A DNA stretch of 64,000 bases from Pseudomonas sp. HS6 (GTDB lineage Bacteria > Pseudomonadota > Gammaproteobacteria > Pseudomonadales > Pseudomonadaceae): assembly GCF_023375815.1 (NCBI RefSeq), contig NZ_CP067412.1:5890001-5954000 (forward strand). The letters are read 5' to 3'. Position numbers and translations under genes: made by a program. The notes under the pieces were generated by a model. The model ran no database searches. It saw only the letters and a program-made list of their open reading frames with translations, and was not told the DNA's origin. Positions 37,696 to 41,334 of the stretch are shown one piece after another. How positions within the stretch are numbered: position 1 is the stretch's first letter; each line of letters starts with the position of its first letter.

Positions 37696-38334
37696 ATGGC
37701 AAAACCTGCCGCACGCATTACTGATCCAACCTCCTGCCCAATGCCCGGGCATGGTCCGAAGGCCATCGCCTCAGGATCCCCCGACGTGTTCTTCGACGGC
37801 CTCGCTGCCGCCCGTAAAGGAGATTCCTGTACCTGTGGAAGTGCCCTGGTGTCAGGTGTTTCCGCCACAGTGTTCATCAACGGCAAGAATGCTGCGCTGA
37901 TCGATACCACAGGTTCACACGGCGACGTTGTCATTGGTGGTTCGGGGACTGTCATCATCGGGGATTCGCATACCCCGGCACCTTTCATTCCTCCTTTACC
38001 TCTCGCCATTCAGAAACGATTCGGGCAGTCGTTCAGTGTTACCGACAGTGAGACGGGTAAGCCGTTGGCGTTTCGTGACTACGTTGCGACGGTCAATGGC
38101 GTCGAGACCAAAGGCGTCACCGATGCTGATGGCATCGCGCACATCAAGACGCCGACGCCCCAGACGTCGAGATGTGCGGCAAAAAATAGAAATGCTCATT
38201 TGGCCGAGGTCGTCAGTTTCACCTGGCAACCTCGGCCATTTTCTTTCCGGCCATTGAGCGACAGCAATCAGCCGCTTACGTGTTCACCTCAACATGATCC
38301 AACGCCTGATTCACTGCCAACCCTGCAACCATAA
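37696..38334 (+). CDS. PAAR-domain protein with a C-terminus that looks frameshifted
   Basis: The first 95 or so residues are a PAAR domain (MAKPAARITDPTSCPMPGHG, later GSHGDVVIGGSGTVIIGD), the sharp tip that binds VgrG on type VI secretion systems. Next comes a short domain (FSVTDSETGKPLAFRDYVAT, GVTDADGIAHIKTP) found after PAAR in Pseudomonas. From about residue 155 the reading loses sense: it runs through a terminator hairpin (38201-38245) and 59 bases into the antisense DUF6124 gene. Another frame ends at a TAG at 38187-38189, just before the hairpin. An indel near 38160 would explain this, leaving a protein of about 160 residues. The ATG follows CAGGAAGTCAAGCAC. No T6SS core genes are in the window. 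Confidence 0.8.
   Translation: MAKPAARITDPTSCPMPGHGPKAIASGSPDVFFDGLAAARKGDSCTCGSALVSGVSATVFINGKNAALIDTTGSHGDVVIGGSGTVIIGDSHTPAPFIPPLPLAIQKRFGQSFSVTDSETGKPLAFRDYVATVNGVETKGVTDADGIAHIKTPTPQTSRCAAKNRNAHLAEVVSFTWQPRPFSFRPLSDSNQPLTCSPQHDPTPDSLPTLQP
38201..38245 (+). terminator. Terminator inside the extended PAAR frame
   Basis: TGGCCGAGGT (38201-38210) pairs with ACCTCGGCCA (38229-38238) over 10 bases with an 18-base loop, followed by TTTTCTTT. It is well placed between the TAG at 38187 and the end of the convergent DUF6124 gene, which supports the view that the PAAR gene should stop before it. Confidence 0.7.
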
Positions 38335-38638
38335 CCACCTGCGCAATCCCCAGTGCAGTCTTGCGGTGCGCTGGTTCCAGGATCGCGGCGAAGTTGCTGA
38401 GCATTTCGCTGGCGGAATCCAGGGATTCGCTGGCGTTGGCCAGGAGCGATTCGCTGTTGTAGGCGGGGTTGGCCAGGAACATGGGGTCGTGTTTGTGGTG
38501 GCTGCCCATGATGCGTTGTTGTGGGGTGAGGTAGTGGTCGAGGGCGCGTTCGGCGGCTTCGTTGAGGGTTCGGGAGTTGGGGGATTGGTAGGGGGAAGCT
38601 GGGTCGGTTTCTGGTGGATTTGGTGTTGGCTTGATCAT
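38276..38638 (-). CDS. DUF6124-type small protein, copy 1
   Basis: 120 residues with the family opening MIKPTPNPPETDPASPYQ and the conserved helix AAERALDHYL. A helical C-terminal half (LLANASESLDSASEMLSNFA, then GIAQVVMVAGLAVNQALDHV) is mildly hydrophobic. Pseudomonas genomes carry several such genes; function is unknown. It is closely related to the copy at 40975 (same opening and DHYL helix). The ATG at 38638 follows CTGGAGTTACATCT, and the GGAG is complementary to a GGCTCC segment 12 bases upstream of it in the leader described separately. Composition is like the host. Confidence 0.85.
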   Translation of the reverse strand: MIKPTPNPPETDPASPYQSPNSRTLNEAAERALDHYLTPQQRIMGSHHKHDPMFLANPAYNSESLLANASESLDSASEMLSNFAAILEPAHRKTALGIAQVVMVAGLAVNQALDHVEVNT

Positions 38639-38640
38639 AG

Positions 38641-38978
38641 ATGTAACTCCAGGGTGAAAAAGTGGAGCCATCAGCCTCGCTACCAAACGAGGGTGGTGGC
38701 CATACGGAGGTTGGTAGACCGGTCACCTGGATACCCGGCGCGTCCGAAGACGCCCTACGCATGGCCACCATAAAACAGAGGACGAAAGAGTCCCTGCAAA
38801 CTGGAGTTGCGATGCGACAGGTAAGCCGGGCTACCAAACCCGATCACTGTTTTTTTCAGTGACCCGGAAACGATAAAACCCGCACCCTGGACGCACAAGC
38901 CGGCGGATTCTGGCGTAGTCGTAGGCAATGACGCAAGGCGTTGTAGCCTTGAGGAAGTAACGCTGAGTGTCTTTAAAC
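38641..38978 (-). ncRNA. Candidate structured leader RNA of DUF6124 copy 1
   Basis: A leader of about 340 bases that matches the one at 40632-40974 in layout. Visible elements on the minus strand: an A-loop hairpin TCACTG..CAGTGA (38862-38844), hairpin CGGG-TTTGGTAG-CCCG (38842-38827), a 12-pair stem GGTGGCCAT..ATGGCCACC (38769/38695) that encloses a TTCG-loop hairpin (about 38754-38737) and the strand CTACCAA (38717-38711), hairpin CCTCG-TTTGGTAG-CGAGG (38692-38675), and GGCTCC (38669-38664) complementary to the ribosome site GGAG (38650-38647). CTACCAA can pair with either TTTGGTAG loop. The start is set at a conserved GTTTAAA that may be a -10 region. Covariation with the other copy is given under findings. 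Confidence 0.7.
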
Positions 38979-39108
38979 AGCATTGAAAAAATCGGTTAAA
39001 CAAACTGTCGGCACAGCGTCCGTTCTTGCGGTATAGGGGGCCGTCAGTGATTGAACAGGGCGAAAAACAAATACAAGAGAAATGACCGTTGGTCGTAAAC
39101 ATCCGAAT

Positions 39109-39128
39109 ACCTGTCAGATCTGACAGGT
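39109..39128. promoter_or_regulatory. Perfect 20-base palindrome upstream of the Ig-like gene
   Basis: ACCTGTCAGA followed directly by its reverse complement TCTGACAGGT, with no spacer. It lies 66 bases before the start of the Ig-like gene. A perfect palindrome of this size may be the operator of a dimeric regulator; no T-run follows, so it is not a terminator. The rest of 38979-39194 shows nothing else. Confidence 0.5.
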
Positions 39129-39194
39129 GACGCTTCCTGCGGTCCTTGATTGAATCACTCCGTCAAACCAATCCCACGAAACGGAGTTACTGAC

Positions 39195-39497
39195 ATGTCT
39201 ACAGCAAAGTCCAATGCCATCGTACCCCTGATCCTTTCTATCAGGGATTCCAAGGGTGGTGAAGTGCCTCAAGGCGGAGTGACCCCTGATACCACTGTGA
39301 CAGTCGCAGGTCGTGCTGAACCAACGAAGAAAGTTGAAGTGCTCGATGGAACAGTTTCGAAAGGCACTGCCCATGCTGACGCAGCAGGCAGTTGGTTACT
39401 GGTCTTAGGTGGACTTGCTCTGGGTGCACACTCGATTACGGCCTCAGATGACGGAGCTGTGTCAGCTACCAGAAAATTTTCAGTGGTTCAACAGTAG
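39195..39497 (+). CDS. Small bacterial Ig-like domain protein
   Basis: 100 residues that form almost exactly one bacterial Ig-like domain: VTPDTTVTVAGRAEPTKKVE, then GSWLLVLGGLALGAHSITA and a final strand ATRKFSVVQQ. The motif pattern is like the repeated adhesin modules of large surface proteins, but here it is a stand-alone protein with no signal peptide. It might be a detached module or a cytoplasmic binding protein; function unknown. The ATG at 39195 follows ACGGAGTTACTGAC. It lies between the two inverted leader-DUF6124 units. Confidence 0.75.
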   Translation: MSTAKSNAIVPLILSIRDSKGGEVPQGGVTPDTTVTVAGRAEPTKKVEVLDGTVSKGTAHADAAGSWLLVLGGLALGAHSITASDDGAVSATRKFSVVQQ

Positions 39498-39601
39498 AAA
39501 ATAGATTCAACGGAAAGATCGGGAGATTTGAGGCACGAGGTTCTCAAGGATCCCGATCTGTTCCTCATACATCGTGCCTGACGTTTTTGAGCGGGCCAGG
39601 G

Positions 39602-39845
39602 CTAGGGGTTTTCCGGGCGGCTGAGCAACGTTTCAATCCGAGCCAGAGGAGGTCGCACCTGACTCCGATCAAAGACTTGCACCCCAACCTTGAGCAACCG
39701 CCCATTCTCCACCCCCCCCCAATCACCTGCTCACACCGCAACAACAACCTCCCTTGATCACACTCCATCGCCTTAACCCCATCGGCAATCTTCCCTCCAG
39801 CCGCAACTCCGCCATCCGACTCTGCGCCGCAATCATCGCAATTGA
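39602..39845 (-). pseudogene. Decayed 3' fragment of a second hxcV (gspI)
   Basis: About 240 bases align with the 3' half of the intact hxcV at 44182-44562, including its TAG stop (39602-39604). A stretch of about 110 bases in the middle (from about 39679) is nearly identical, while both ends differ at many bases. Two indels in C tracts break the frame: nine C at 39712-39720 against seven in the intact gene, and four C at 39777-39780 against five. The 5' part of the gene is missing; the match stops at about 39845, next to a palindromic repeat. It cannot make a working pseudopilin. Confidence 0.88.
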
Positions 39846-39860
39846 AAGAAGGGGACCGTG

Positions 39861-39908
39861 AAAGAAGGGGACAGATTTATTTTCCAGAAAATAGATCAGC
39901 CCCCTTTG
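39861..39908. repeat. GGGGACAGATTTATTT-type imperfect palindrome
   Basis: AAAGAAGGGGACAGATTTAT faces ATAGATCAGCCCCCTTTG with CCA between the T- and A-rich centres, so the whole 48 bases can fold back. The arm GGGGACAGATTTATTT is a widespread proteobacterial palindrome of the REP kind. A partial copy (GAAGGGGACC) lies just before it. It marks the truncation point of the hxcV fragment. Confidence 0.75.
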
Positions 39909-39947
39909 TTTCCTTTGTTTCTGACGGGGCGCCGCATCAAGATCTGC

Positions 39948-40430
39948 TTAGTCGCCCAAATCAACGGCATCACCGTTAGCCCGGACATAATAATTATCGA
40001 ATTCACCGCTTTCGACGAACACGAAGCCATGGCGAGTGTAAAAACGATTTGAAGCGCTTTCCTGGAGAGCACCGACCTTGATGGGGCGCCCGATCTCATC
40101 AGCCTCTCTGAAAATCTGAGTAAGAACTTCAGAGCCGATTCCTGCTCCTTGAGCACTGGGCATCACATACAAGTGGTCAAGCAAAAGCTCGCTCTGGTGG
40201 TCTTTGATTACGACAAAACCGACCAGATCACCTGATACTTCTATGCGGCGAGTGCTGTTAACGTCGAACCCAGCAACAAATCGTTCGCGCGCACGATCTG
40301 GGTTAAATCGTCCAAGCCGTTCAAGGCTCTCGCGCATGGCCTCAATTCTGATGGCTACCAGATTTTCCAGGTCGTTATTGGAAGCTGCGCATAAAACGAC
40401 AGCGGAGTTTTGATCAACGGAGGCTGGCAT
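39948..40430 (-). CDS. GNAT-family N-acetyltransferase
   Basis: 160 residues from the ATG at 40430, which has AGGGTG six bases upstream; an in-frame ATG at 40448 has no ribosome site. The acetyl-CoA site shows as LYVMPSAQGAGIGSEVLTQI, the Q/R-x-x-G-x-G/A pattern of motif A, and the C-terminal ASNRFYTRHGFVFVESG is the usual last GNAT motif. Substrate cannot be read. The single gene sits between the hxcV remnant and the second leader, in host-like composition. Such enzymes are frequent passengers in accessory regions. Confidence 0.88.
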   Translation of the reverse strand: MPASVDQNSAVVLCAASNNDLENLVAIRIEAMRESLERLGRFNPDRARERFVAGFDVNSTRRIEVSGDLVGFVVIKDHQSELLLDHLYVMPSAQGAGIGSEVLTQIFREADEIGRPIKVGALQESASNRFYTRHGFVFVESGEFDNYYVRANGDAVDLGD

Positions 40431-40631
40431 AACAAGCACCCTAAACATGGTCGGTCAGTCATTATGCAGAGAACAGATTCCGCATAACCACTCCTGCTTC
40501 GGTTCAATGGAGGCGACGGCTCCATATCAGCTTCAGAGGGATGTGTTCGCCGGACGCTTACGTTTGTTGGGGCAAGGGGACGGATCTGTCGTGGGGTCCG
40601 AGACGCAATGAGAATTCCGATAAGCACCAAC

Positions 40632-40974
40632 GTTTAAAAAGACATCTCCAGACACTCTCTCAGGCTACATATCCTTGCGCCGTTGCCTACAGCTACGCCA
40701 GAATCCGCCGGCTTGTGCGCCTTGGGGACGGGTTCTATTGTGGTGCGGTCGCTGACGAATCAGTGATCGGATTTGACCGTCCGCCCAACATCAAGGCGCA
40801 CCAGCGTTCTGCACGTGTTCAGGCATTGTCTGAAATCATGTCGCGGTGGCTGTGCGTGGGACACCTTCGGGTGTGCCGGATTCCTTGATGTCCGGTCGGT
40901 CAACCCGCGTACAGCTGCCACCCTGTTTGTTTGACCGCGAACGGTGGCGGCTCCGGTCATCAAGGAGCTTCACC
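40632..40974 (+). ncRNA. Candidate structured leader RNA of DUF6124 copy 2
   Basis: Second copy of the leader, ending at the start codon. Elements in order: GTTTAAA (40632), the conserved stretch GCCTACAGCTACGCCAGAAT and CCGCCGGCTTGTGCG (about 40685-40719), hairpin CGCTGA-CGAA-TCAGTG (40750-40765), hairpin CGGA-TTTGACCG-TCCG (40768-40783), a stem GGTGGC-TGT-GCG (40845-40856) with its partner ending GCCACC near 40922, enclosing a TTCG-loop hairpin (about 40858-40877) and CGGTCAA (40897-40903), hairpin GTTTG-TTTGACCG-CGAAC (40925-40942), and GGCTCC (40949-40954) complementary to the ribosome site GGAGC (40964-40968). CGGTCAA matches both TTTGACCG loops. Confidence 0.7.
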
Positions 40975-41334
40975 ATGATCAAACCAACACCCACCCCGCC
41001 CGAAACCGAATCGGTTTCCCCCTACGAATCCATAGATTCCAGAAAACTCCACGAAGCCGCCGACCGCGCGCTCGACCATTATCTCTGTCCGCCCGGCTCC
41101 ACGCCGCCCCCACGTAGAACCCGCGGGATGTATGCCGTGACTGCGGACAACAAAAACGAAGAACTGCTGATTGATGCCAGTGAAACTCTCGCTTCGGCCC
41201 AAACCATTGCCCAAAACATCGCCAGTCTGGTGCCGGCTTCGCAGCGTCGGGCGTTGGTGGGGATTGCGCAGTTGATCATGCTCGGGGAGTTGGCGGTGAA
41301 TCGGGCGTTGGATAATTTGCAATTGCCGGAGTGA
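40975..41334 (+). CDS. DUF6124-type small protein, copy 2
   Basis: 119 residues opening MIKPTPTPPETESVSPYESI and continuing with the helix AADRALDHYL, as in copy 1. The variable middle (PPGSTPPPRRTRGMYAVTAD) is longer in Pro and Arg. The C-terminal half (TIAQNIASLVPASQRRALVG, then IAQLIMLGELAVNRALDNL) is helical and partly hydrophobic. Function unknown. The ATG at 40975 follows AAGGAGCTTCACC. The two copies point away from each other, so together with their leaders they form an inverted repeat of about 700 bases around 39.8 kb. Confidence 0.85.
   Translation: MIKPTPTPPETESVSPYESIDSRKLHEAADRALDHYLCPPGSTPPPRRTRGMYAVTADNKNEELLIDASETLASAQTIAQNIASLVPASQRRALVGIAQLIMLGELAVNRALDNLQLPE

Follow-up and report, generated by a model that had tools for sequence, protein, structure and literature searches.

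What kind of RNA precedes the two related DUF6124 genes of Pseudomonas sp. HS6 that face away from each other in the stretch of 64,000 nucleotides studied here? This stretch (contig NZ_CP067412.1, positions 5,890,001 to 5,954,000), which we call the window and number from its first letter, carries one gene on the minus strand (38276..38638, 120 amino acids; PF19619, 60.8 bits) and one on the plus strand (40975..41334, 119 amino acids; PF19619, 64.1 bits), each behind a structured leader. The original prediction described these leaders as a translational switch that occurs twice and belongs to no described family. Comparison with Rfam showed that both leaders match the C4 antisense RNA (RF01695), with 82.3 bits for the minus copy and 75.3 bits for the plus copy (cut-off 45 bits; E-values of 1.4e-15 and 7.9e-14 in a search space of 7.5 kb), which is far beyond chance. 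Because Rfam places both leaders in the C4 family, the claim of no known family falls, and an unknown riboswitch-like leader family was rejected on the same matches. Judged by their sequence, both leaders are antisense modules of the phage P1/P7 C4 type, and it is very probable that each works as a module of the immI kind known from these phages, in which an antisense RNA silences its own gene through private addresses.

By eye, with the annotation of phage P1 as a guide, both copies hold the same elements in the same order, namely a1, b1, C4, a2, b2 over the ribosome site, and the start codon; an automatic check of a1 before b1 agreed in 113 of 161 modules, its best upstream matches being noisy. 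In the plus copy (module G000_5930839), the C4 RNA lies at 40839..40925. Its a' word CGGTCAA (40897..40903) forms seven Watson-Crick pairs with both a1 (TTGACCG, 40773..40779) and a2 (TTGACCG, 40931..40937, in the hairpin directly 3' of C4), and its b' word TTCCTTGATG (40881..40890, in the loop of stem P3) forms 10 contiguous pairs, 9 of them Watson-Crick, with the b2 site CATCAAGGAG over the Shine-Dalgarno sequence (40958..40967). The b1 word is ACATCAAGG (40788..40796). In the minus copy (module G000_5928689; C4 at 38689..38775), the a' word CTACCAA (38711..38717) is complementary to TTGGTAG, in minus-strand reading, at both a1 (38831..38837) and a2 (38680..38686, again directly 3' of C4). 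The P3 loop holds the b' word TATCCAGGTGA (38723..38733), in which TCCAGG pairs contiguously with CCTGGA of the b2 site TCACCCTGGAG over the Shine-Dalgarno sequence (38647..38657), and more pairs follow past a one-base bulge. The minus-copy b1 candidate TTACCTG (38818..38824) pairs with part of b', including one G-U pair, and is weaker than the other words. Upstream of C4, the c4-a1b1 element (RF03163, cut-off 46.7 bits) was a near miss in both copies, with 45.8 bits in the minus copy (38823..38876, a hairpin followed by the a1 hairpin) and 43.7 bits in the plus copy (40735..40787); position and words nonetheless agree with a1b1.

The hairpins quoted in the original prediction are all present, and their paired changes are genuine. 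The a1 hairpins are CGGG-TTTGGTAG-CCCG and CGGA-TTTGACCG-TCCG, the a2 hairpins are CCTCG-TTTGGTAG-CGAGG and GTTTG-TTTGACCG-CGAAC, and the C4 RNA contributes stem P1 (GGTGGCCAT/ATGGCCACC) and stem P2 (GCGTC-TTCG-GACGC). The strand that was noted to have two alternative partners (CTACCAA or CGGTCAA) is the a' word of C4, complementary to its own a1 and a2; the second specificity word, b', which lies in the P3 hairpin loop of C4 and pairs with the ribosome site and b1, had been missed. The ribosome site is involved as proposed, and GGCTCC stands opposite GGAG in both copies (38664..38669 on the minus strand and 40949..40954 on the plus strand), where it can pair with the Shine-Dalgarno sequence. 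Of 161 modules, 64 have the motif CTCC in this zone, whereas simple shuffling of the letters gave 9.6 on average. The proposed covariation was borne out as well: among 161 C4 RNAs from seven genomes, the consensus stems were 96.9% canonical compared to 85.9% when the 3' columns were shuffled among sequences, and changes on both sides were found at 16 of 22 stem pairs (shuffled mean 10.9, maximum 15). This test used an RNAalifold structure on a MAFFT alignment and a shuffle that ignores relatedness; 6 of the 167 C4 hits were set aside here and in the word counts, the CTCC-zone check and the element-order check.

Phage P1, searched with the same models, scored 68.8 bits for C4 and 51.0 bits for a1b1. 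Its annotated record reads a1, b1, C4, a2, b2 and then icd, with TTGACAG as the a words, GTTAGTGC/GTTAGTGA as the b words, b2 close to the start codon, and 47 nucleotides from the Rfam C4 end to the start codon. In the P1 model, as set out in the passages of PMC5320573, PMC12197685 and PMC8546580 that concern it, C4 is processed by RNase P, and a' and b' bind the mRNA and block its translation. The Pseudomonas modules share with P1/P7 immI the C4 covariance model, the a1-b1-C4-a2-b2 order, the position of b2 on the ribosome site, the spacing to the start codon and the complementarity of the words. They differ in being chromosomal, with up to 30 matches per genome and mostly DUF6124 as cargo, and in that both words are diverse and a1b1 often falls under the Rfam cut-off (20 of 25 matches in the HS6 genome). 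The immI cargo, icd followed by an antirepressor gene, was not found in the window, where the cargo is DUF6124; the window modules are thus C4 RNAs, but in their cargo they are no immI operon.

The original idea of a translational switch holds for the structured RNA, the alternative partners and the ribosome site, but in the known paradigm an antisense RNA is processed and then acts on a2 and b2, as opposed to a switch made of kissing loops in cis alone. A purely cis-acting switch, in which a' would swap between the a1 and a2 loops of one mRNA and no RNA would be released, could account for the complementarity of a' to its own sites on either side of C4 and for the ability of GGCTCC to hide the ribosome site. 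It could also draw on a third strand: in the window at 40943-40952 on the plus strand, as across the 161 modules, the strand that follows a2 shows complementarity to the 3' strand of C4 stem P1 (16.29 for self and 15.00 for non-self, reached in 0 of 2000 permutations). By eye, phage P1 has a similar strand after a2, and a third-strand switch is possible. Against a purely cis-acting switch stand the full C4 fold with the spacing of phage P1, and the second word b' for the ribosome site, which would be superfluous to it; in addition, the C4-like RNAs of Acinetobacter baumannii are reported in PMC5320573 to be expressed at high levels and apparently to derive from larger transcripts by processing. 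We regard this alternative as quite unlikely.

The leader had been thought to occur only twice, but the HS6 genome (6.55 Mb, one contig) holds 27 full modules, 25 beyond the window pair. It gave 28 C4 matches, 27 of them above the cut-off, and 25 a1b1 matches, of which 5 were above and 20 below the cut-off. In 27 of the 28 C4 matches, C4 is followed by matches to both words (b2 is weak in two) and by an open gene; near the 28th there is no gene of 60 codons. The placement of a structured RNA before DUF6124 genes, as proposed, recurs in 20 of the 27 full modules. All 27 are sense-oriented, and the distance from the Rfam C4 end to the start codon is 46-54 nucleotides (in two of them, to the start of a short leader open reading frame). 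This fixed orientation and spacing, together with the complementarity to the ribosome site and the lack of a plasmid match for the plus-copy protein, speaks against a single-stranded DNA structure for recombination or a mobile-element end, an alternative raised at the outset that the dispersed, repeated and palindromic copies might otherwise bring to mind. It is extremely improbable and was rejected on the fixed gene linkage and the absent plasmid match.

We found C4 in 138 of 149 Pseudomonas genomes, with counts per genome of at least 27 at the upper end of that scan. When five genomes were searched with up to 150 scored candidates each, they gave 10 (G003), 30 (G018), 22 (G033), 30 (G045) and 20 (G098) C4 matches, and a closer relative (G011) gave 27. 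In a survey of the order, C4 was present in 20 of 145 genomes, and the 19 other than HS6 had 1-6 copies. DUF6124 was present in one of 145 genomes of the order, that of HS6, and was not found in the 143 genomes outside the genus, nor in one other Pseudomonas genome of that draw. C4 also lies directly upstream of the gene in each of the 87 loci retrieved by protein or annotation (L188-L274), which comprise 78 named Pseudomonas loci, one phage record and eight viral contigs; the 78 were drawn from the best 80 of 218 protein matches, and are hence closest relatives. The plus-copy protein matched one phage record and one viral contig, and a DUF3077 protein matched seven viral contigs. In phage record EU982300, a C4-DUF6124 unit is divergent from prtR. 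On viral contig L189, the C4-DUF6124 module lies between a phage integrase gene and an alpha/beta hydrolase gene. Phages as the main carrier of the modules are not supported.

The modules might be decayed prophage remnants without function, given that phages are known to carry C4, that copies adjoin prophage genes and that some appear broken (of 167 hits, 6 were set aside and 27 have unassigned cargo). However, 27 of the 28 matches in this genome keep their parts and an open gene, pairing is kept while the words change, and C4 is present in nearly all genomes of the genus that were scanned. Functionless remnants are very unlikely on these grounds.

The private character of the words was tested by comparing complementarity to own and to permuted targets, with an ungapped pairing score and with duplex energy. 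For the 27 modules of HS6, none of 10,000 permutations reached the observed value for b'-b2, b'-upstream, a'-a2 or a'-upstream. As controls, b' against the a2 zone was equalled in 7619 (energy) and 8309 (ungapped) of 10,000 permutations, and a' against the b2 zone in 707 (energy) and 353 (ungapped). Among 140 C4 hits from six genomes, 0 of 2000 within-genome permutations reached the observed value for any of the four pairings, with own and permuted scores of 19.83 and 13.78 for b'-b2, 17.23 and 12.44 for a'-a2, 18.79 and 16.25 for b'-upstream, and 18.20 and 14.83 for a'-upstream. Here the control of a' against the b2 zone (J-Da) was equalled in 154 of 2000 permutations, and that of b' against the a2 zone (H-Db), whose window overlaps the real b2, reached significance too (0 of 2000). 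Ranked by the ungapped score, the own b2 came first for 19 of 27 modules and the own a2 for 21 of 27; among the 140 hits, the own b2 was first within its genome for 79 and the own a2 for 77. The b' strings in the 161 modules of the seven genomes were distinct in 27/27, 27/27, 29/29, 22/22, 20/20, 26/26 and 9/10 cases, near-identical words counting as distinct in this comparison of strings. The sole clear pair with the same address consists of identical C4 RNAs near opposite ends of one contig (G003:C1:13691 and 4778550), explained by either a recent duplication or an overlap of the assembly at the origin. On average, C4 RNAs fit their own targets far better than the targets of their paralogues.

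Strongly varying words might also be expected if C4 RNAs acted mainly in trans on other RNAs, such as those of incoming phages or unrelated host mRNAs, with the gene behind them incidental. Both kinds of target were suggested for A. baumannii in the relevant part of PMC5320573, and C4 is trans-acting in phage P1 according to the sections of PMC12197685 and PMC8546580 on it. The full modules, however, hold matching a2 and b2 sites in their own mRNA, which change in step with C4 (no other trans target was searched for), and we consider this alternative unlikely. The group 1 C4-like RNAs of A. baumannii resemble the Pseudomonas set in number, with 21 similar RNAs in one genome, and in having a variable a' loop, and they differ in being described as small RNAs with phage or other bacterial RNAs as proposed targets (PMC5320573, as far as its account of this group goes); the Pseudomonas C4 RNAs are parts of complete modules that include their target and gene, and b' is their most variable word. 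The alternatives considered here overlap in part, and their probabilities need not sum to one.

How the words change was followed between positional orthologues and between paralogues. Ten reciprocal positional pairs were found between HS6 and G011; one (G000_5105390) was dropped as its partner was also the best match of a paralogue, its words differing too, and two non-reciprocal pairs were likewise left outside the nine that were kept. Both words were kept in three of the nine pairs, including the plus copy of the window, and nearly so in a fourth, where a' is the same and the core of b' is, by eye, retained. In three pairs b' was replaced and a' kept, and in two both were replaced, so that b' was replaced in five of nine. 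Pairing with the own sites was kept in each genome in all nine (by eye in the fourth), which shows that both words can be replaced in step. Mean identity over the nine pairs was 0.88 for the scaffold, 0.92 for the a' word and 0.65 for the b' loop. In the same comparison, the C4 of the minus copy seemed to reach the target of the plus copy through 6 pairs; by eye, this was so only by way of letters of the P3 stem.

In 15 within-genome pairs with a protein identity of 90% or more (seven genomes), the b' loop was 55% identical, compared to 84% for the scaffold, 93% for the proteins and 49% for the b' of random pairs; a first paralogue metric, which let unrelated pairs through (13 of 140 rows dropped), was not relied on. 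Among 227 modules of 40 genomes (protein pairs at least 60% identical), both words were shared in 2 of 46 within-genome pairs whose proteins have an identity of 90% or more, both cases in draft genomes and one through stem letters by eye; at 80% protein identity, they were shared in 2 of 105 pairs within and 271 of 2383 pairs between genomes. These pairs are non-independent and orthology is confounded with genome membership, which applies to the Fisher tests as well. Both words are common to loci L237 and L246, which come from a single draft genome; of the two, L246 is close to the end of a contig and has a weak upstream match to a'.

These patterns invite a stronger reading, that of a domesticated and diversifying library of two-word locks, in which about 30 orthogonal C4-target pairs per cell would silence small antirepressor-type proteins. 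Words would be selected to be private, as in the P1/P7 immunity groups, an incoming module without a matching C4 would be expressed at once (self versus non-self), and the coordinated exchange of b' at three sites would outpace change in the RNA scaffold and in the neighbouring genes. We put this forward tentatively and think it rather doubtful, since b' loops, compared at the same protein identity, differ about as much between genomes as within one; fast b' change is thus general, and within-genome privacy is not singled out.

With regard to the cargo, 21 of the 27 proteins behind C4 in HS6 matched DUF6124 and two DUF3077 at E <= 0.01 (one protein matched both), and five matched neither. Conversely, of 24 DUF6124 hits in this genome, 20 lie behind a C4; of the remaining four, two are the second gene of a module and two lack a listed C4 nearby. 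The second genes (G000:C1:2031323-2031511 and 5106139-5106327) follow first proteins that are 98% identical, and these two modules have a' in common and unrelated b' words. One DUF6124/DUF3077-like gene that lacks a listed C4 match nearby, at L146 (G000:C1:2038900-2040900), is, by eye, divergent from a phage-type repressor-like gene. All 27 proteins align by MAFFT over their C-terminal half, with low identity for the last seven. The AlphaFold model of the plus-copy protein (mean predicted local distance difference test score 75.4) has helices at residues 22-37, 61-85 and 88-115, the last two of which form a hairpin. A search of the PDB with the DUF6124 profile and one of NCBIfam with the 27 cargo proteins gave no match, and PHROGs placed cargo proteins in two unnamed families of two members each.

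Across the 167 C4 hits of the seven genomes, our own profiles assigned 98 cargo genes as DUF6124-like, 20 as a Pfam-less relative, 12 as DUF3077 and 10 as Bro-N. Pfam was searched with eight of the ten Bro-N proteins; each of them exceeded the Bro-N cut-off, and each matched PHROGs named anti-repressor. One Bro-N protein starts with MIKVTPNPPE, a DUF6124-type start, followed by Bro-N; therefore, cargo seems exchangeable behind one leader. The modules thus resemble phage antirepressor operons (ant of phage P1 with its KilAC domain, and Bro-N proteins) in having Bro-N genes directly behind 10 of 167 C4 hits, as ant of phage P1 is itself under C4 control, and differ in that the scanned DUF6124 and DUF3077 proteins had no Bro-N or KilAC match and the DUF6124 model is small and helical. 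Another likeness to immI is a leader open reading frame coupled to the gene, as in icd-ant: in nine DUF3077 modules (two from HS6 and seven viral, several near-identical), the C4 target starts a leader frame of 19-31 codons, the stop of which overlaps the DUF3077 start in eight and lies 4 nucleotides before it in one.

By analogy with phage P1, we infer repression, processing by RNase P and action in trans, and propose the following mechanism. A single promoter would drive the leader and the gene together. The upstream alignment has TTG-type and TA-type boxes, 17 nucleotides apart and immediately before the a1b1 hairpins, which are likely a promoter; by consensus and conserved position, the candidates are TTGTGC and TATCGT in the minus copy (38870..38898) and TTGTGC and TATTGT in the plus copy (40713..40741), each with 17 nucleotides between the boxes. 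The C4 part would fold into three stems and be excised by RNase P. Free C4 can pair by a' with a2 and by b' with b2, which would cover the ribosome site and block translation of DUF6124, and the upstream a1 and b1 may offer a second site for the same two words, as a decoy or for timing. Given that both words vary from module to module, the mRNA of its own module should be the main target of each C4, and the chromosome would carry about 27 self-silenced, largely insulated small genes. Since C4 of phage P1 silences an antirepressor operon and some chromosomal modules carry Bro-N genes, DUF6124 and DUF3077 proteins are most likely antirepressor-type cargo, perhaps regulators that would be disruptive if made constantly.

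Several results weigh against this account of private, self-silencing modules. The c4-a1b1 cut-off was missed by both window copies; the minus copy has a short b' match (6 contiguous pairs and the bulge) and a weak b1, and two further modules of HS6 (L029 and L037) have a weak b2. By RNAduplex energy, the own b2 ranked first in just 10 of 27 modules and the own a2 in 1 of 27. Cross-matches of both words were found in 22 of 3798 ordered within-genome pairs, compared to 19.8 expected if the words were independent, and therefore no avoidance beyond chance is shown; many of the 22, by eye, rely on stem letters or on a target lacking a proper a2. The b' loop identity at protein identity of at least 90% was 0.58 between genomes (828 pairs) and 0.55 within them (15 pairs). 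For 27 of the 167 C4 hits, none of the four profiles assigned the cargo, although pieces of 14 matched one of them in some frame (E <= 0.01), and some of the 27 have other short open frames. Finally, Foldseek with the AlphaFold model gave no match at E <= 0.001, and the link between DUF6124 and antirepressors, a weaker part of the proposal, comes only from their common position and relatives.

Other features were noted near the modules. A block, AGAATCCGCCGG, lies upstream of 14 of 27 modules in HS6, 13 of 27 in G011, 10 of 30 in G045, 13 of 22 in G033, 2 of 20 in G098 and none in G018 and G003; this uneven frequency, down to zero in two genomes, indicates that the block is not essential. The isrK RNA (RF01394) weakly matched the a1b1 region in both window copies, in L189-L195 and in phage P1, all under its cut-off of 50 bits and with no match listed for L188 or L196; judging by these matches, isrK and a1b1 may be related. 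Elsewhere in the window, at 37716-37787 on the plus strand, the Rfam model of the P10 small RNA matched within a PAAR-motif gene (62.9 bits, cut-off 37), possibly a coding sequence filed as a small RNA or an RNA inside the gene.

Many C4-like RNAs per genome were already reported in A. baumannii, as the part of PMC5320573 on them describes, so a high copy number is not in itself a novelty. Within the open-licence PMC literature that was searched, the new elements are complete modules with their own targets, the DUF6124, DUF3077 and Bro-N cargo, and two-word addressing with fast b' turnover; we recognised no paper there that links C4 to DUF6124 or describes C4 in Pseudomonas, and for the families themselves we found none on DUF6124 and one passing mention of DUF3077. 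DUF6124, a family without literature in these papers, thereby becomes a testable regulon. With up to 30 natural RNA-target pairs per cell, expected to be largely free of cross-reaction, the modules are a possible source of orthogonal parts for gene control. Why C4 words diverge, an old question from P1/P7 heteroimmunity, can now be tested with many natural pairs. Taken together, these results suggest that a phage immunity RNA has been amplified into a chromosomal system across the genus Pseudomonas.

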